Positions 10,537 through 22,094 of a stretch of 64,000 nucleotides of DNA are shown in pieces. This DNA is from Acidobacteriota bacterium (lineage in GTDB: Bacteria; Acidobacteriota; Terriglobia; 2-12-FULL-54-10), in NCBI GenBank assembly GCA_016191085.1, contig JACPPJ010000005.1:1-64000 (forward strand). The letters run 5' to 3'. Position 1 is the first letter of the stretch. Each line of letters starts with the position of its first letter. The notes below the pieces were generated by a model that saw only the letters and a program-made list of their open reading frames with translations, searched no databases and was not told the DNA's origin. The position numbers were made by a program, and so were the translations under genes.

Positions 10537-12156
10537 TCAGTGCAATTGGCGGATATGAGGTGAAGTGACAGAGAGTTTCGCTACTCGCCGTCTTACGTCT
10601 TTCCCCCAGCCTCCCCCGCCGGGTGTCTCGATTCGTAAAACAGCACCGGCCGGGGCGGTGAAATTTGCCTTCGACGATAAGGCGATCGTCCGTTTTCCGA
10701 ATAATAGTTCGTTCTTCCCCAGCTTACCGGGCTTGCCTCCGGCGAGGCCATACGGCGGAAATCTGCGGCGGTCCGAGAGAATGGTTCCACGGACAGGCGT
10801 CAGAAATTCCAGTTCGCGAACAATGCCGTCGCCGCCTTTGTACTTTCCGGCGCCATGCGAGCCGTGCCGCAGCGAATAGCGGCGCACGCGCACCGGTAGA
10901 GCGGATTCCAGCGCCTCTACTGGCGTGTTCAGTGAATTCGTCATGTGAGTGTGAACGCCGCTGAGCCCGTCGGCGCTGGGACGCGCGCCCATGCCACCTG
11001 CGACCGTTTCGTAGTAAGCGAAAGGCGCACCGGTGCGAGGGTCCACGCCTCCGAATGAGATGTTATTCATAGTACCGCAGCTTGCCGCGGGAATGCGATG
11101 CGGCAGCGCGCGAGCTAACGCGAGCAGGAGTACGTCCACGATTCGCTGCGACGTTTCCACGTTGCCGCCCGCCACCGCGGCAGGCGGCCGCGCGTTTACG
11201 ATGCTGCCTTCGGGGGCGATTACCTCGATCGGCTGCATCAGCCCCGCGCAGGCGGGAACGTCCTCCTGCAGCAGGCATCGGAAGACGTAGAACACCGCCG
11301 ATTGCGTGATGGCGAGCACCGCGTTCACGTTGCCGCGGCACGATGGCGCCGAGCCGGTGAAGTCCACGCGCGCCCGGTCCCTGGAGATGCGAATCTCCAC
11401 GGCAATTCGAATCGGCCTGTCATCAAAGCCGTCGTTATCGAGAAAGTCTTCCGCTCTGTAGACACCATCGGGCATCGCCGCGATCTCCGCCTGCATCAGG
11501 CGAGCGGAATAAGCCTGCAGCGCATCGAGATAGAAACGCGTTTTCGTTTCGCCATATTTTTCCGCAATCTCGGTAAGGCGGCGCTCGCCGAGGCGGCAGG
11601 CAGCGATCTGTGCCGTGAGGTCGCCTTCGCGCTCGCGCGGCGTGCGGGCATTCGCCAGCAGCAGCGTCATAGCGTCTCGTTGAATGACTCCGCCGCGCGT
11701 CAGGTAAATGGGGGGAATTCGCAACCCTTCTTGATAGATCTCTTCCGTCAACCCCATCGAGGCGGGCTGCGCGCCGCCGACGTCGGAGTGGTGTGCACGA
11801 TTCGCGACATAGAACATCGCCCCGGTGCCGTGTATCACCACCGGCGTCACCATAGTAATATCCGGCAGGTGCGTGCCGCCGGCATAGGGATCGTTGAGCA
11901 TGGCGATGTCGCCCTCGCCGAGCTCCAGCGCGCTCATCACGGAGGCCACCGAGATTGGCATGGAGCCCAAATGTACTGGCATGTGGTCGCCCATCGCGAC
12001 GACGCGCCCCTCGCCATCAAATACCGCGCAGGAATAATCACGGCGCTCTTTTATGTTTGGCGAAAAACTGGAGCGCCGCAGCGACGCCCCCATCTCCTCT
12101 GCAACGGAGTGGAACATGTTCTTAAATATTTCCAGTTCGGTCGCATCAACGCGCAT
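10537..12156 (-). CDS. Hydantoinase B/oxoprolinase family protein
   Basis: FHSVAEEMGASLRRSSFSPNIKERRDYSCAVFD, GDIAMLNDPYAGGTHLPDI; C-term FTAPAGAVLRIETPGGGGWG. Confidence 0.95.
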   Translation of the reverse strand: MRVDATELEIFKNMFHSVAEEMGASLRRSSFSPNIKERRDYSCAVFDGEGRVVAMGDHMPVHLGSMPISVASVMSALELGEGDIAMLNDPYAGGTHLPDITMVTPVVIHGTGAMFYVANRAHHSDVGGAQPASMGLTEEIYQEGLRIPPIYLTRGGVIQRDAMTLLLANARTPREREGDLTAQIAACRLGERRLTEIAEKYGETKTRFYLDALQAYSARLMQAEIAAMPDGVYRAEDFLDNDGFDDRPIRIAVEIRISRDRARVDFTGSAPSCRGNVNAVLAITQSAVFYVFRCLLQEDVPACAGLMQPIEVIAPEGSIVNARPPAAVAGGNVETSQRIVDVLLLALARALPHRIPAASCGTMNNISFGGVDPRTGAPFAYYETVAGGMGARPSADGLSGVHTHMTNSLNTPVEALESALPVRVRRYSLRHGSHGAGKYKGGDGIVRELEFLTPVRGTILSDRRRFPPYGLAGGKPGKLGKNELLFGKRTIALSSKANFTAPAGAVLRIETPGGGGWGKDVRRRVAKLSVTSPHIRQLH

Positions 12157-14230
12157 GGCGGGTGATCACCAGATTCTGAAATTCATCCACTCGACAACGG
12201 AACCCCGGCGGGAGAGCCGTTGTGGAGCTATACTCCACGACGATTGCAGGGCCATTAAGGTTCATACCGGGTCGCAGGCGAGCGCGGTCATAAAAGCGAG
12301 TGGTGTGTGTTGAACCGTTGAACCAAACCGGCTTTTCGCAGATGATGGCGGCGGTTGCGACCGCACGCCCCAATGGTTCGGGTTGCAGCGGAGGCTTCGG
12401 TGTTGGGACGGTCAGGCGAACGCGGATGCTGACGATCTCCATCGGCCTCTGCGGGGCAGAGTATCCGTAAGCTCGCTCATGTTCCTTGTGGAACTGTGGC
12501 AAAAATTCAGGCGTGAACGGGACACGCAATTCGTAACTCTGCCCTGAATACCTCAGATCAATCGCACGTTCAATGTTGACGCGTTTATTCGGGATGCCAT
12601 CCTTGCGCAGCTCTGTTATGCCCGCATGTTCTAGCTGCTGAAACCGGCGATTCAAATCAGCAGCCAATCGTTTGGCCTCACGCGAGCCGTTGTTTGCCGC
12701 TTGCGGAGGTACGGCCAGCAGCACGGATTGCGAGACGTCCCGCACTGAATCGGAGATTAAAATCCCGAGCGCGGAGAACGCGCCCGGATTCGGAGGTACG
12801 ACGACCTGCGCCAGCACGAGGGAGGCGGCTAGTTCAGCAGCGTGCAGCCCGCCTCCTCCACCGAAACAGATCAGCGCGAAATCACGCGGATCATACCCGC
12901 GCTCCACAGAAATGACCCGCAGCGCTTTCTCCATTGTTGCGTTCGAAACAGCGACAATGCCCTGCGCGAGCTGCATTGGATCTTTATAGCTGGCGTGCTT
13001 GCGAGAGTATTCTCGCAAAAATCGCTCGAAGGCTTGTATAGCCGCCCCACGCGAAAGCTGAAACGCTCCGCCGAGAAAGTGATCGGGATCGAGCCGTCCG
13101 AGCAGCAAATTGGCGTCTGTGACGGTGGGCTGGTCGCCGCCTTTGCCATAGCAGATGGGACCGGGAACAGCGCCGGCACTCTCAGGGCCCACTCGCAACG
13201 CGCCGCCGGCGTCCAGCCGCGCCAGCGATCCGCCTCCTGCGCCAACTGAATGTATGTCGAGCACCGGCACGGCAACGGGAACTCCTGCCAAGGTTGTTTC
13301 GTTGGTGGTTCGAGCTGGGCCGTCGAGCAGGCAAACATCGGTGGATGTCCCGCCCATATCAAAGCTGATGGCGCGCCGAATGCCCAACGTGTCGGCGAGC
13401 CAGCGGGCAGCTACGACGCCGCCCGCTGGGCCGGATAAGATGGTGCGCACGGGTTCGCTCGCCGCTCGATCCGCCGTCGTGATCCCGCCGCTCGACTGCA
13501 TGATGAACAGCCGCGTTGCGCAGGTCCGGCCTTTGTAGCCGCCCCGGCCAACCCCAAGGGTTGGCTGCGCCGCGACCTGCTGTTCCAGTCGCGTGAGGTA
13601 TCGGCCCATAGCGGGAGCGAGGAAGGAGTTGATTGCCACCGTGGAGAGCCGTTCGTACTCACGAAATTCGGGAAGAATTTCATGCGAGACGGATACCGGT
13701 AGGCCCAACCGCCGGAGCGCAGCCGCGACCAGACGTTCATTTTCCGGGTTCACGAAGGAAAATAGAAAGCACAGCGCGACCGCGTCAGCGTTCGAGCTTC
13801 GCACCTGTTGCCGCAGCCGCTCAATCTCGCGCTTACCCGGTCGCAACAGAATCGTGCCGTCCGCCGCCGTCCGTTCGCGCACGCCAAATCTCAACTCGCG
13901 GGCAATCATCGGCGCGGGACGTTGGACGTTGAGGTTGTAAAGCTGAGGCCGGTTCTGACGGCCAATTTCGATGAGGTCTTCGAAGCCTTGGGTCGTTACG
14001 AGCGCGACGCGCACCCCTCGACGTTCCAACAGGTTATTGGTGGCGACGGTTGTGCCGTGGATTACGTCCTCGATGTAACGGCTACGCGCCAGTTCGCGGA
14101 GACCCCGAACGATGTGACGGGCGGGGTCATCGGGGCTTGAAAATACTTTCAGAACTCGAAATCCGGAGCCATCGGCGACAATGCAGTCGGTGAACGTGCC
14201 TCCAGTGTCCACGCCTATACGCATCAGCAA
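12146..14230 (-). CDS. Hydantoinase A/oxoprolinase family protein
   Basis: MRIGVDTGGTFTDCIV, HGTTVATNNLLERRGVRVALVTTQGFEDLIEIGRQ, SFDMGGTSTDVCL. Confidence 0.95.
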   Translation of the reverse strand: MLMRIGVDTGGTFTDCIVADGSGFRVLKVFSSPDDPARHIVRGLRELARSRYIEDVIHGTTVATNNLLERRGVRVALVTTQGFEDLIEIGRQNRPQLYNLNVQRPAPMIARELRFGVRERTAADGTILLRPGKREIERLRQQVRSSNADAVALCFLFSFVNPENERLVAAALRRLGLPVSVSHEILPEFREYERLSTVAINSFLAPAMGRYLTRLEQQVAAQPTLGVGRGGYKGRTCATRLFIMQSSGGITTADRAASEPVRTILSGPAGGVVAARWLADTLGIRRAISFDMGGTSTDVCLLDGPARTTNETTLAGVPVAVPVLDIHSVGAGGGSLARLDAGGALRVGPESAGAVPGPICYGKGGDQPTVTDANLLLGRLDPDHFLGGAFQLSRGAAIQAFERFLREYSRKHASYKDPMQLAQGIVAVSNATMEKALRVISVERGYDPRDFALICFGGGGGLHAAELAASLVLAQVVVPPNPGAFSALGILISDSVRDVSQSVLLAVPPQAANNGSREAKRLAADLNRRFQQLEHAGITELRKDGIPNKRVNIERAIDLRYSGQSYELRVPFTPEFLPQFHKEHERAYGYSAPQRPMEIVSIRVRLTVPTPKPPLQPEPLGRAVATAAIICEKPVWFNGSTHTTRFYDRARLRPGMNLNGPAIVVEYSSTTALPPGFRCRVDEFQNLVITRHAR

Positions 14231-14574: not shown

Positions 14575-16575
14575 TTATACCCGAGTGTCTTGCGGGCACG
14601 GTTCTGTCCTTGGCAATAGTAAGCTCTCACTGAACCTCTGCTGCGCGTCCAGCCATTGCCGACGCACTTGAAAGCCGGAGTTACAGGCCATCCTGGCGAT
14701 CTCAGGTATCGAATATTTGTAAGAGTTCTCGGTGTGAATCGCTTCGTCGCGCCGGAACGAAACGGAGATGCCGAGGCGATCGATGGAGACTCGCTGCGCT
14801 CGCTTGCTGACCAGATACATCTCGACGCGCCCGGCGTCCTCGTTGTACACGGCACGGTGACGAAAATTTACCGGGTCAAAATGGCCGCCGAGTTCATCGT
14901 TGATCCGCTTCAACAGGTTCAAATTGAACTGGGCAGTAATCCCGGCCGAATCGTCGTACGCTCTTTCGAGCGCGCCGCGATCCTTGCGAAGATCGATTCC
15001 AAGCAGCAACGCATCGCGTGAGTTCATCACAGCGCGTATCTTGCTGAGAAACTCAGCCGCCTCGTCCCTGGTCAGATTGCCGATATTCGAGCCGAGCCAG
15101 AGGATCAGCTTGGCGCGGTGGTTCTGTTTGGCAAACTCACGTAAACACTCTTGATACTCGCCTGCAACAGCCGTGATCTCCAGCCCCGGGCACGCTCTTA
15201 GCAATGCTCGCGAGCTTTCCTCCAGGACAGCGCGCGAAATGTCCATGGGAACATACCGCAGGCGCTTGTGCCGCTGCAGAACCGCGGCGATTAGAAAGCG
15301 CGTCTTGGCGGCGTTGCCGCTGCCCAGTTCGGCAATCGTTACGTCAGCCGGAAGCCGACGGGCAATTTCGGTCGCGTGCCGCTGAATGATCTCGCGCTCG
15401 GCTCGCATGAGATAGTACTCGGGTAAATCGCAGATAGCTTCGAACAGTTTCGACCCCTCAGCGTTGTAAAAAAACCTGCACGCCAGAAACTTTGGCCGAC
15501 TGCGCAGACCCGCCTTAACGGAACCGGCGAAATCGGCGTCAAGCGAGCCGATGCTGCGATCCACAAGCTGGAAACGGCCGGTGGTGATTGCGGACGTGCT
15601 ATGCCGTTGACGCGGAGGCGCGGCATCATACAACTCCTTTATCAATGCGCGCCAGCTCCGAAGTTCGCGCGCTGGCGTGAATAGCGGGCGTAGACGGACG
15701 CACCACGCCTGGAGGCGCCGCAAGAATTCGGCGTCGCCCTCTGCTCGCTGCATCAGCTCCAGCAAAGCGCGCGTGCTGTCGACGGGGAAGTATCCCGGGT
15801 ATTCGCGTCCGAGGATGCCCACCGAGCCGGAGATCTTCGATGCCAGTACAGGAACTCCCATGGCGATTGCTTCGGAAACGACGTTGGCGCCGCCTTCCAT
15901 CTTCGAGCTGAGCACTACAGCCCGACAGCGAGCCATGAGCCGCAGCATCTTGGTTTGCGGCAAATCACCGAGCCAGCGATAGCGCGAATTCACGTGTTCT
16001 TCGGCGCGCGCTCGCAACTCCATTTGTTTGGTCAGGGCGCCCCCTGCGTGTACTACATGAATGCGGGAGGACGCCGGCAACAGGCGCGCTGCCAACGCTG
16101 CGCGAAACGGATCTTTCACCGCCCTCAGGTGCCCGAAGACGCCGATCTGAAAATCTCGTTTTAGCGGGCTCGTGTGCAGGTGAAACTTTTCTACAGATTG
16201 AAAAATTACGCGAGCCTTGCCGCGCAAGTGTTGCGGCAACTCATCGATCCCCAGCGGCTGGAGGACAATCAGTCTTGATGCGAGTTCAAGCGACTGCTGG
16301 GCCGCCTTGCTGGTCTTGATGTCCTTGTAAAGATCCGTTCCGGTGAGCGCCACTATCAGAGGCAAATCCGGGTGGCGTTGTCGGAAGCGCCTGATGGATG
16401 CCGCGCTCCGTCTTGCGTGCAGCGCAATCAGAAGGTCGCACGGTTCTCCCAAGTATTCCTGCTTCACCGTGACGCGATGCCCTAGCTGCCGCAGCAGTTT
16501 ACTCCACCGGTCGGCGGTAATCCGGTTCCCTTTGCGCGAATGTGATGGGGCGGGAGTAACGAGGAGGATGTTCAT
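14575..16575 (-). CDS. Fusion: SenB-like glycosyltransferase (selenosugar synthase family) plus EgtD-like histidine N-alpha-methyltransferase
   Basis: N-term MNILLVTPAPSHSRKGNRITADRW, LIALHARRSAASIRRF, LIVALTGTDLYKDI, SRLIVLQPLG; C-term RFFYNAEGSKLFEAICDLPEYYLMRAEREI, IAELGSGNAAKTRFLI, LILWLGSNIGNLTRDEAAEFL. Confidence 0.85.
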   Translation of the reverse strand: MNILLVTPAPSHSRKGNRITADRWSKLLRQLGHRVTVKQEYLGEPCDLLIALHARRSAASIRRFRQRHPDLPLIVALTGTDLYKDIKTSKAAQQSLELASRLIVLQPLGIDELPQHLRGKARVIFQSVEKFHLHTSPLKRDFQIGVFGHLRAVKDPFRAALAARLLPASSRIHVVHAGGALTKQMELRARAEEHVNSRYRWLGDLPQTKMLRLMARCRAVVLSSKMEGGANVVSEAIAMGVPVLASKISGSVGILGREYPGYFPVDSTRALLELMQRAEGDAEFLRRLQAWCVRLRPLFTPARELRSWRALIKELYDAAPPRQRHSTSAITTGRFQLVDRSIGSLDADFAGSVKAGLRSRPKFLACRFFYNAEGSKLFEAICDLPEYYLMRAEREIIQRHATEIARRLPADVTIAELGSGNAAKTRFLIAAVLQRHKRLRYVPMDISRAVLEESSRALLRACPGLEITAVAGEYQECLREFAKQNHRAKLILWLGSNIGNLTRDEAAEFLSKIRAVMNSRDALLLGIDLRKDRGALERAYDDSAGITAQFNLNLLKRINDELGGHFDPVNFRHRAVYNEDAGRVEMYLVSKRAQRVSIDRLGISVSFRRDEAIHTENSYKYSIPEIARMACNSGFQVRRQWLDAQQRFSESLLLPRTEPCPQDTRV

Positions 16576-16650
16576 TTAAGTGTCAGCTATTAGCAGTCAG
16601 CGCTTAGCGTCAGACCTCAGCGCTGACCGCTGATCGCCAAAAGCTGATTG
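16566..16650. repeat. Imperfect low-complexity repeat of the GCTGATAGC/TCAGCGCTGACC type
   Basis: taagtgtcagctattagcagtcagcgcttagcgtcagacctcagcgctgaccgctgatcg. Confidence 0.5.
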
Positions 16651-18006
16651 CTATTCCAGTGGTCTGCAGGTGCGAAATCCGGCCCAGACGTCGCGCCGGT
16701 CCGGCATATAAAAATTTCGATAGGTGTTATGAATGAATCGCGAGCGCGTCGCCCAGCAGCCGCCGCGCAGGACCTTGTGCGTGTCGAACCAGGGCTCGGA
16801 ATATTCCTGGTAGGGATCCGGCACAAACCCAGGGTAGGGGACAAACGGAGTGGCCGTCCATTCCCACACGTTGCCGATCATCTGGCGGCAGCCGAAAATC
16901 GTGTCGCCTTTCGGAAACGCGGAGACATCCACAACGCCCCTTGCGATCCAGTCGAGATTGGCCTCGCCCGCTGCGGCGGTGCGTTCGCCCCAGGGATAGC
17001 GGCGTTTGTTGCGCGAGAGATTCACTGCGTCACGCTCAGGTACACCTGCGGCAGCGGCTTCCCATTCCGATTCGGAGGGCAAGCGGCGCTTAGCCCAGCG
17101 GCAATACGCGTCGGCCTCATACCAGTTGACGTGGATCATCGCCATGTTGGGTTCAATCGGCGTTAGTTGATCAAACGAGCGGCGGAACCACCTGCCAGGC
17201 GAGCATTCATCCCAATACAGCGGATGCGACGCGCCACTCTGCTGCCGCCATAACCAGCCCTCTGGAGACCACAGATCCTCGCGGTTATAGCCGCCGTCCT
17301 CGACGAATGCAAGGAACTCTCCCTGCGTGACGGCGGTGCGGGAGATCGCGAACGGCCGCAGTTGCACCGGGTGAGTCCACTTTTCGTTGTCGAATACAAA
17401 CGGCTCCTGCAGAGAAGCGCCCAGCAAAAACTCTCCGCCGGGAATTTCGACATCGCCGGAGATGCGGGTTGGATCGGGAGCAATGACCGCATCGTCAGCG
17501 CGGGGCACAGCGATGCGTGGAGCCGCATACCCGAGCGTCTGCCGTGTGTACGTGAAGGCCTCGTTATGCATGTCGCCGTGGAACACGGAGTACATGACGT
17601 GATAAAGAAACTCAGGAGCCGGATGAGGTTTCGACAGCTTGTCCAGCACGCGGTCGCGCACCTGCGTCATGTACCGCAGCGTCTCCTCACGCGTGGGAAG
17701 CGGCAGGTCCCAACGCGTGTCGTGGGGAATGGCGATGGAGTCGTATAACGAGTCGGCGTCGCCACGGATCGGTTTTTCGCGACAGGCGTGGCGAAGGACC
17801 CATTTTTCCGTGAACCAGGCCGTGTGCCCGATCTCCCACAGCAGTGGATTCACAATCGCCAGGCGCGGCCCCATCAACTGTTCGTCATTCAGATCGGCCA
17901 CTAGCTCCAGCGTGCGGTCCAGGACGTCTCGCACCCAGGCAGCGAGTTCGCACACGTCAGGCGGATGGAAACCCGGCAAGTTGGTAATGGCGGAGTTAGT
18001 TGTCAT
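16651..18006 (-). CDS. EgtB/SenA-like non-heme iron sulfoxide/selenoxide synthase (DinB plus FGE-sulfatase domains)
   Basis: DinB motif GHTAWFTEKW and HGDMHNEAFTYTRQ; FGE motifs ISRTAVTQGEFLAFVEDGGY, RLPSESEWEAAAAG, GNVWEWTATPF; C-term DTHKVLRGGCWATRSRFIHNTYRNFYMPDRRDVWAGFRTC. Confidence 0.88.
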   Translation of the reverse strand: MTTNSAITNLPGFHPPDVCELAAWVRDVLDRTLELVADLNDEQLMGPRLAIVNPLLWEIGHTAWFTEKWVLRHACREKPIRGDADSLYDSIAIPHDTRWDLPLPTREETLRYMTQVRDRVLDKLSKPHPAPEFLYHVMYSVFHGDMHNEAFTYTRQTLGYAAPRIAVPRADDAVIAPDPTRISGDVEIPGGEFLLGASLQEPFVFDNEKWTHPVQLRPFAISRTAVTQGEFLAFVEDGGYNREDLWSPEGWLWRQQSGASHPLYWDECSPGRWFRRSFDQLTPIEPNMAMIHVNWYEADAYCRWAKRRLPSESEWEAAAAGVPERDAVNLSRNKRRYPWGERTAAAGEANLDWIARGVVDVSAFPKGDTIFGCRQMIGNVWEWTATPFVPYPGFVPDPYQEYSEPWFDTHKVLRGGCWATRSRFIHNTYRNFYMPDRRDVWAGFRTCRPLE

Positions 18007-19827: not shown

Positions 19828-21345
19828 CTATTCTGGCCTGAGTCTCAGACCTCTGGGAGTGAAAGATCGCTCAGCGAGTTCGAACGCGCCCTGGACCAGC
19901 AGAGCGAGGATTGCCGCTGGAACGGCGCCCTGCAGGATCAGGCCCGTATCGTCGAGGCGTATGCCTGTGAGTATCGGCTGACCGTACCCACCTGCCCCGA
20001 TCAGCGCGCCTAGCGTCGCAGTTCCGACGTTGATCACGGCCGAAGTTTTGATACCGGCCAGGATAGACCGAGACGCGATCGGCAGTTCAATCAATCGTAG
20101 CCGCGGGCCTTCCGGTAGTCCCAGAGCCGCGGCGGATTCGCGTACTGATGGAGCAATATCGCGAAGCCCCGTATAGGTATTCCGCACGATGGGCAGCAGA
20201 CTATAGAGGAACAGCGCCACAATTGCCGGAGGCCCGCCAATACCGAGCAACGGGATCATGAACACCAGCAGAGCCAGCGATGGAATGGTTTGAATGACAC
20301 CTGTGAGCGCAAGAATGACTTGCCCAGCACGCCGGAACTTGTTCGCGAAAATTCCGAGGGGAATCGATACCACGATCGCAGCCGTCAGCGAGACCGCCAC
20401 AAGCAGTAAGTGTTCCTTCGTGCGTTGGAGGATCATCTCGACCGTACTCGCATCGCGCGTGTCGTTGTGAAGACCCAAGCTCCCCGCCAGGAACTCGGAC
20501 GCGATGCGCTCTTCCGGCACCTTGTCGAGCTTGGCGCGCGCGTTCATCTCGATCATCGCCTGCTCGGAGATGCGGCCTTCGAGTTGCAGGATTGCGCGGA
20601 TCGCGTCGGGCGCTCGCTTCGACGCATCGTCACGGTAGAGCAGCACTGCGTCATATTGAGGGAAGTAGCCGAGGTCGTCTCGCAGGACGCGCAATTTGCG
20701 GTACTGGATCTCCGCATCGGTTGAGTAAAGATCCGTCGCGTGTATTGCGCCGCTCTCCAGGGCTCTGTAGGCGAGTTCGTGATCCATGCCCCGCGCATTT
20801 CTCTGCGGGAGTGCGTAGCGAGCGCGGAGGCCCGGCCAGCCATCGCCGCGGTCCATGAACTCATTGCTGAAGCCGAAATTCAGTTCAGGATGCCGGCGGA
20901 GGTCGGAGATAGTCTCGATGCTGAGTTGCATGGCGACTTCTTCTTTCATCCCGATTGCATAGGTGTCGTTGAAGCCGAGTGAGCGGCTCATGCGGACGCC
21001 GCGCTCTTCGAGCGCGCTGCGAATCGCCTCTTCGTTGTTTTTCCCGGAGGCTGATAACTGCGGCAGAATCTCCTGCGTGATCGTGCCGGTGTATTCGGGG
21101 TATAGATCAATCTCGCCTCGCTGCAAAGCGTTCCACAACACTTGGGTGCCGCCGAGTTCTCTCCGTTCGCGGACCTCTGCGCCCGCGTTCTTGGCGAGAA
21201 TAGCGACCATGTCACCCAGAATGACGGACTCGGTGAACGCCTTGGAGCCGATAGTGAGCGAAGGTCCAGCAGCATGGACCAGGCAAGCAGGAACGAAGCC
21301 GATGCTAACTGTCCAAATGAGCAAAGCGTGCACGCGCTTGTTCAT
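19828..21345 (-). CDS. Glycine betaine/osmoprotectant ABC transporter, fused substrate-binding and permease
   Basis: LTIGSKAFTESVILGDMVAILAKNAG, YPEYTGTI; C-term permease IPLGIFANKFRRAGQVILALTGVIQTIPSLALLVFMIPLLGIG. Confidence 0.92.
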   Translation of the reverse strand: MNKRVHALLIWTVSIGFVPACLVHAAGPSLTIGSKAFTESVILGDMVAILAKNAGAEVRERRELGGTQVLWNALQRGEIDLYPEYTGTITQEILPQLSASGKNNEEAIRSALEERGVRMSRSLGFNDTYAIGMKEEVAMQLSIETISDLRRHPELNFGFSNEFMDRGDGWPGLRARYALPQRNARGMDHELAYRALESGAIHATDLYSTDAEIQYRKLRVLRDDLGYFPQYDAVLLYRDDASKRAPDAIRAILQLEGRISEQAMIEMNARAKLDKVPEERIASEFLAGSLGLHNDTRDASTVEMILQRTKEHLLLVAVSLTAAIVVSIPLGIFANKFRRAGQVILALTGVIQTIPSLALLVFMIPLLGIGGPPAIVALFLYSLLPIVRNTYTGLRDIAPSVRESAAALGLPEGPRLRLIELPIASRSILAGIKTSAVINVGTATLGALIGAGGYGQPILTGIRLDDTGLILQGAVPAAILALLVQGAFELAERSFTPRGLRLRPE

Positions 21346-22094
21346 GCCAGCGTTCCTCGCAGCGTCTCGAGCGGGCTACGCTGTGCGTTAATGAATTGCG
21401 TGACGAATGGCTCGGCTGGAGCATGCACGAAATCATGCAGCGTCCCCTGCTGCACAATGCGGCCATCGCGAAGCAGCACGATAACATCCCCGAAATAACC
21501 CGCCTCGCCAATGTCATGCGTCACGAGCACCACGGTCTTATGCAGAGTTTGGAATATGCGCCGGAGATCAGTTTGCAATTCGCAGCGGATCATCGGATCG
21601 AGTGCGCCAAGCGGCTCGTCGAGCAGGATCACGCTGGGGTCGAGCATCAGGGCACGCATAATGGCGACGCGCTGCTTCTGCCCGCCGGAAAGCTGTGCCG
21701 GAAACCGTTGCAGCGCATCGGCCGGAAACTGCGTCAACGCTGCCAGTTCAGTCAATCGATCTGTGATTCGAGTTGCGCTCCATCCGAGATAGCGCGCCAT
21801 CAGGACGACGTTTTCGCGGGCCGTCAGGTGAGGAAACAACCCTCCATCCTGTATCACGTACCCCATGCGCCTGCGTAGCGTAAGAATAGTCTCGGGCGTG
21901 ACCAGTGTGCCGTCTGCGGAGACGCTGCCCGAGTCAGGCCAGATCAGGCCGATCATCATGCGCAGCAGCGTGGACTTACCGCAACCGCTGGGGCCGATGA
22001 GGACTGTTGTTCTTCCGGGTTCCGCGGTGAGGCTGATGTCCCGCAAGGCAGGAACGTTGCCGAAGCTCTTCGTGACGCCACTCAGTTGCAGCAT
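21342..22094 (-). CDS. Osmoprotectant ABC transporter ATP-binding protein
   Basis: Walker A IGPSGCGKSTLL, signature LSGGQKQRVAIMRAL, Walker B VILLDEPLGALD. Confidence 0.95.
   Translation of the reverse strand: MLQLSGVTKSFGNVPALRDISLTAEPGRTTVLIGPSGCGKSTLLRMMIGLIWPDSGSVSADGTLVTPETILTLRRRMGYVIQDGGLFPHLTARENVVLMARYLGWSATRITDRLTELAALTQFPADALQRFPAQLSGGQKQRVAIMRALMLDPSVILLDEPLGALDPMIRCELQTDLRRIFQTLHKTVVLVTHDIGEAGYFGDVIVLLRDGRIVQQGTLHDFVHAPAEPFVTQFINAQRSPLETLRGTLA

Follow-up and report, generated by a model that had tools for sequence, protein, structure and literature searches.

A putative selenoneine operon from the Acidobacteriota in which the genes for SenB and EgtD are joined into one

Few dedicated pathways incorporate selenium into small molecules. 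The selenoneine pathway is among them, and its sen enzymes have so far been studied mainly from beta-proteobacteria. Fusions involving EgtD are familiar from fungi, where Egt1 is an EgtD joined to an EgtB-type synthase. The S. pombe pathway has been described (PMC4020840). In V. paradoxus SenB, residues important by mutagenesis are known, and the enzyme has a donor triad (N20, T23 and E231), an Se-P cleaving lysine (K158) and an acceptor pocket for selenophosphate (H58, R61, T83, T85 and R155), with E239 as a further residue of interest (PMC10891094, PMC10702425). A natural SenB-EgtD fusion is not mentioned in the literature that we searched, a scope outside which lie the founding paper on sen (Nature 2022), the one on ovoselenol (Nat Chem 2024) and their supplements.

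We analyzed a 64,000-nucleotide stretch of an Acidobacteriota contig (the window), in which senB and egtD occupy one gene. It lies at 14575..16575 on the minus strand and is a single open frame of 666 codons from an ATG, encoding a 666-aa protein with SenB followed by EgtD and an equivalog match above cut-off for each. Residues 3-313 (15637..16569, minus strand), a predicted Se-glycosyltransferase or selenosugar synthase, match the curated NCBIfam equivalog HMM for SenB, TIGR04348, with 402.9 bits (E 7.6e-121; cut-off 300 bits). The EgtD domain, a predicted histidine N-alpha-methyltransferase making hercynine, spans residues 350-653 (14617..15528, minus strand), and residues 350-649 match TIGR03438 with 354 bits (E 6.1e-106; cut-off 290.9 bits); Pfam Methyltransf_33 also matches the protein (E 2e-108). 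Between the domains lies a linker of about residues 314-349 (15529..15636, minus strand), predicted to be disordered from its low pLDDT. Sequence matches in the PDB include SenB structures at E ~1e-57 and EgtD structures at E ~1e-60. An AF2 model of the whole fusion had a mean pLDDT of 77.5, with most of the SenB part above 90 and residues 320-387 below 50, and the EgtD domain modelled alone had a mean of 91. The SenB part of the model matches the solved SenB 8jjn (E 7e-31, TM-score 0.92 by target length) and the EgtD part of the same chain matches the solved EgtD 4pim (E 2e-26, TM-score 0.75). For both domain identities, the strength of the matches is far beyond chance. The original prediction, made from the letters of the DNA, had called the N-terminal part SenB-type and the C-terminal part EgtD-like; the HMM search that it proposed bears out both, and the motifs that it quoted are all found in the frame.

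The residues expected to carry out the chemistry are largely in place. By alignment, N17, T20, H53, R56, T78, T80, Q126, R151, K154, E227 and E235 of the fusion correspond to N20, T23, H58, R61, T83, T85, Q131, R155, K158, E231 and E239 of V. paradoxus SenB, and the donor triad, the Se-P cleaving lysine, the selenophosphate pocket and the equivalent of E239 are all kept. Four residues of V. paradoxus SenB are replaced in the fusion (N17, R22, T214 and H235), of which N17 and R22 are sugar/base contacts. In the EgtD part, Y370, Y387, N500, Y540, M586, E616 and S618 correspond to Y39, Y56, N166, Y206, M252, E282 and S284 of M. smegmatis EgtD. Apart from M252, these are the His-binding residues of that enzyme, and the full set of mycobacterial histidine-pocket residues is present in the fusion.

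Immediately upstream on the same strand (16651..18006) there is a senA homologue, which the original prediction did not mention. It encodes a putative selenoneine synthase of 451 aa with DinB_2 and FGE-sulfatase domains, scores 505 bits with the SenA model NF041186 (cut-off 420 bits) but 337.9 bits with the EgtB model, below the cut-off of 360 bits, and is placed among the SenAs of sen loci. Its position agrees with the predicted pathway logic, in which SenA would join the selenosugar from SenB to the hercynine from EgtD, and gives that prediction its strongest support. Elsewhere in the genome neither EgtD nor an EgtB-type protein matches over the family cut-off, so SenA is the only visible use of hercynine and selenoneine its only visible fate. 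The 75-bp gap between senA and the fusion gene (window 16576-16650) is made of short repeated words, for example CAGCGGTCAGCGCTGA and GCTGACTGCTAATAGCTGAC.

We read the locus as a compact selenoneine operon, senA followed by senB-egtD, with one gene now encoding both of the enzymes that supply SenA with its substrates; we give this reading a probability of about 80%. The SenB domain would convert selenophosphate and a UDP-sugar to a selenosugar, the EgtD domain would trimethylate histidine with SAM to give hercynine, and the separate SenA would combine selenosugar, hercynine and O2 into a selenoxide that collapses to selenoneine. Because SenB and EgtD are on parallel branches that meet at SenA and neither uses the product of the other, the fusion leaves no route for channelling between them, and the long linker with its low pLDDT in the model counts against a rigid joint active site. 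The likely benefit would be a fixed 1:1 supply of the two substrates of SenA, possibly with co-localisation near SenA.

The selenophosphate would presumably come from a SelD encoded outside the assembled contigs. A profile search found no SelD or SenC over cut-off in this 88%-complete assembly. The genome has tRNA-Sec (71.5 bits), and SelD and SelB are present in all four of the same-family genomes tested; the most economical reading is that SelD lies in the missing part of the assembly. The top SelD candidate in the genome was rejected as a ThiL-like kinase beside a TenA-like gene, and two weaker matches are probably PurL/PurM, going by the size and location of their ORFs.

A survey of fusion architectures, also suggested in the original prediction, found that the fusion recurs in other genomes. 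In the class to which the window belongs, SenB occurs in 33 of 399 genomes, and just two of the 33 have a frame of fused length: the window and a genome of the same family (G397). Across the phylum, SenB was over cut-off in 30 of 396 genomes, and in the loci examined it was joined to EgtD in the window only. The G397 locus has the order senA, senB-egtD, hyuA, hyuB and is syntenic with the window from a betaine importer through hyuB. The fusion there (L124/L137) has one in-frame TGA in its SenB part, at the position of R172, an arginine codon in the window; this was probably a change from CGA to TGA, either a sequencing error or decay. Outside the phylum, intact fusions occur in Neomarinimicrobiota (DTUJ01000250.1, L065; 653 aa, senA directly upstream) and in Planctomycetota (G1213; 676-aa frame). 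A further fusion from outside the phylum (L224 in G973) is interrupted in its EgtD part by a TGA or frame break, near query residues 63-73, and has senA downstream, not upstream.

In several relatives senB and egtD touch or overlap, some of them through an ATGA overlap, and the unfused overlapping genes of L067, L069 and the same-family genome G399 show the precursor state. The fused proteins are not clustered on the EgtD tree, and their distribution takes five changes, at least two of which are forced by well-supported (starred) branches. This scatter makes repeated joining or splitting of neighbouring genes likely. The SenB tree has no decisive branching on the origin of the fusion, and an alignment that placed SenB-only and EgtD-only proteins together against the fusion appeared misaligned and was set aside. 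Judging from these gene arrangements, the fusion arose when neighbouring senB and egtD genes that overlapped were joined, probably more than once. It is a case of repeated joining of operon genes, not of new chemistry, and the architecture is real but rare.

Other products of the locus have to be weighed against selenoneine. The operon might make a 5-seleno-histidine product such as ovoselenol, with an OvsA in place of SenA and another role for EgtD, and the SenA-like protein does find its best sequence match in the PDB in OvsA (328 bits vs 241 for SenA). OvsA also passes the NF041186 cut-off (438.6 vs 420), so the score was not taken as sufficient proof of SenA and active-site residues were used instead; annotations based on NF041186 may mix SenA with OvsA. 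At the three positions where the OvsA entries 8u41 (M/Q/A) and 8ux5 (Y/N/F, presumably an engineered variant) differ, the window enzyme has Y/N/F, as does V. paradoxus SenA, and not the M/Q/A of 8u41. Y/N/F is the active-site pattern of the hercynine-using SenA and M/Q/A that of the histidine-using OvsA, and the window enzyme is of the SenA type. Its NF041186 score is also higher than that of OvsA, and EgtD is physically joined to SenB, implying hercynine; we consider ovoselenol very improbable. An operon for ergothioneine only, with an ordinary glycosyltransferase in place of SenB and an EgtB in place of SenA, would draw on the GT4-type fold and on the homology between SenA and EgtB. Against it, the SenB domain is over its equivalog cut-off with K154, N17, T20 and E227 conserved, the SenA homologue passes its own model and not that of EgtB, and tRNA-Sec is found in the genome and SelD in its relatives, which leaves this explanation hardly credible.

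The frame itself has a competing explanation. Within the divergent linker, where the start of a free egtD would be expected, there is a strong AAAGGAG ribosome-binding site (15634-15640) followed by ATGATG, whose first base is at 15629 (together 15629..15640, minus strand), and this start is not in the frame of EgtD. The signal may be left over from a time when the genes were separate, or it may betray a one-base error. In the latter case an indel, from sequencing, assembly or recent mutation, would have joined two overlapping genes, with egtD truly starting at the ATG at 15629 and senB ending shortly beyond. The reading from this start in frame +1, MMPRLRVNGIARPQSPP, resembles MRRSPSPERF, the start of the free EgtD in L069, and G399 in the same family has separate overlapping genes. 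However, the frame is open from end to end, the linker is too divergent for inferring an indel, and the fusions of G397, which is in frame at its junction in the same family, of Neomarinimicrobiota and of Planctomycetota have no out-of-frame start signal of this kind, so the case for the architecture does not depend on this genome. An indel here is unlikely in our judgement, and the fused frame is probably genuine.

While comparing SenB proteins, we noted in-frame TGA codons at two places. Among 135 distinct SenBs, codon 4 is TGA in four, which come from at least three lineages (L035 in G011; L037/L073 in G052, Acidobacteria SKYB104; L070 in Tectomicrobia; and L086), never TAA or TAG, and 13 others have Cys (TGC or TGT) there; one example reads MRI, then TGA, then IVTPAPP. 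In all four of the genomes there are tRNA-Sec and SelB, together with a SelD match that is either truncated or interrupted by a TGA. TGA also occurs at residue 130-131 in L236 (G1238), L237 (G1146) and L082 (Latescibacteria), in the linker between the NTD and CTD just after a conserved QS (QSAPD, QSAPA and QSCT, each followed by TGA), and a Zixiibacteriota SenB (L083) has Cys at 131; this is a possible second Sec site. The senBs with TGA at codon 4 have hairpins with a G-containing apical loop ~20 nt downstream. Hairpins 3' of the senB TGA codons agree in broad terms with the published model of the bacterial SECIS, but shuffled sequences are just as stable, and a search with the ordinary Rfam families for a SECIS element there gave no match. 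These features are consistent with some SenBs being candidate selenoproteins in selenocysteine-decoding genomes; position 4 is otherwise variable in SenB, which argues for caution.

Directly downstream of the fusion, on the same strand, is a hyuA/hyuB-like pair: a gene of the hydantoinase/oxoprolinase/caprolactamase alpha family (12146..14230; NF050156, 471 bits, below the cut-off of 1000) and a hyuB-like subunit (10537..12156; NF050157, 265 bits, below cut-off). The pair is syntenic in G397 (63% and 77% identity), and among the other sen loci there is only one distant HyuA match (L070). Upstream of senA, again on the minus strand, is a betaine-type ABC importer with a substrate-binding domain fused N-terminally to its permease (19828..21345; best PDB match EgtUC, E 6e-42) and a ProV-like ATPase (21342..22094; 212.7 bits, below the subfamily cut-off); both are syntenic in G397 at 70% identity each, and importer-like genes also neighbour the sen genes of L060 (G185) and L118. 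EgtU is marked by G244, F293 and Y337 of SpEgtU (PMC9732360). The window importer aligns with F, Y and F at these positions, as does the betaine binder AfProX. We rejected an EgtU role in ergothioneine or selenoneine uptake, since the markers are absent even though EgtUC is the closest solved substrate-binding domain, and call it a betaine-type importer that is associated with the sen locus, a candidate but not a proven member of the pathway. In G397, the region between importer and senA (L137:10348-12851) holds OsmC-like, Rv1680-like SBP and MetE-like genes; the OsmC-like gene weakly matches an OsmC-related (seleno)protein model and the Rv1680-like SBP matches a putative selenate SBP below cut-off.

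The position of the fusion beside senA and its recurrence across phyla indicate that in these organisms EgtD is an integral and dedicated part of this pathway, not borrowed from ergothioneine synthesis. A bolder idea, which we regard as improbable, is that SenB-EgtD is a scaffold on which SenA docks and receives both substrates without their release, among them the selenol sugar, which is labile and toxic; if true, the repeated fusion in separate phyla would reflect selection for a metabolon. The fusion offers a natural test of substrate co-production versus a physical complex, and senA with senB-egtD could serve as a ready two-gene cassette for selenoneine production.

The locus shares with senABC of V. 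paradoxus (PMC10891094, PMC10702425) homologous SenA and SenB with the same catalytic residues and the same inferred chemistry, and differs from it in that SenB is joined to EgtD, no senC adjoins, and senB follows senA on the same strand. The senA-senB-egtD operons of other Acidobacteriota and Planctomycetota (L067, L069, L080 and L090) have the same gene order, overlapping or touching, but keep senB and egtD as separate genes. An engineered SenB-SenC fusion (PMC11929427) likewise places SenB in a two-enzyme protein, although that fusion is artificial and joins SenB to its selenophosphate supplier. Fungal Egt1 resembles the fusion in that it, too, belongs to a histidine-betaine pathway and combines EgtD with a second enzyme. 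In Egt1, however, the partner of EgtD acts on the product of EgtD, so that channelling is possible, whereas in the SenB-EgtD protein the partner belongs to the parallel branch.
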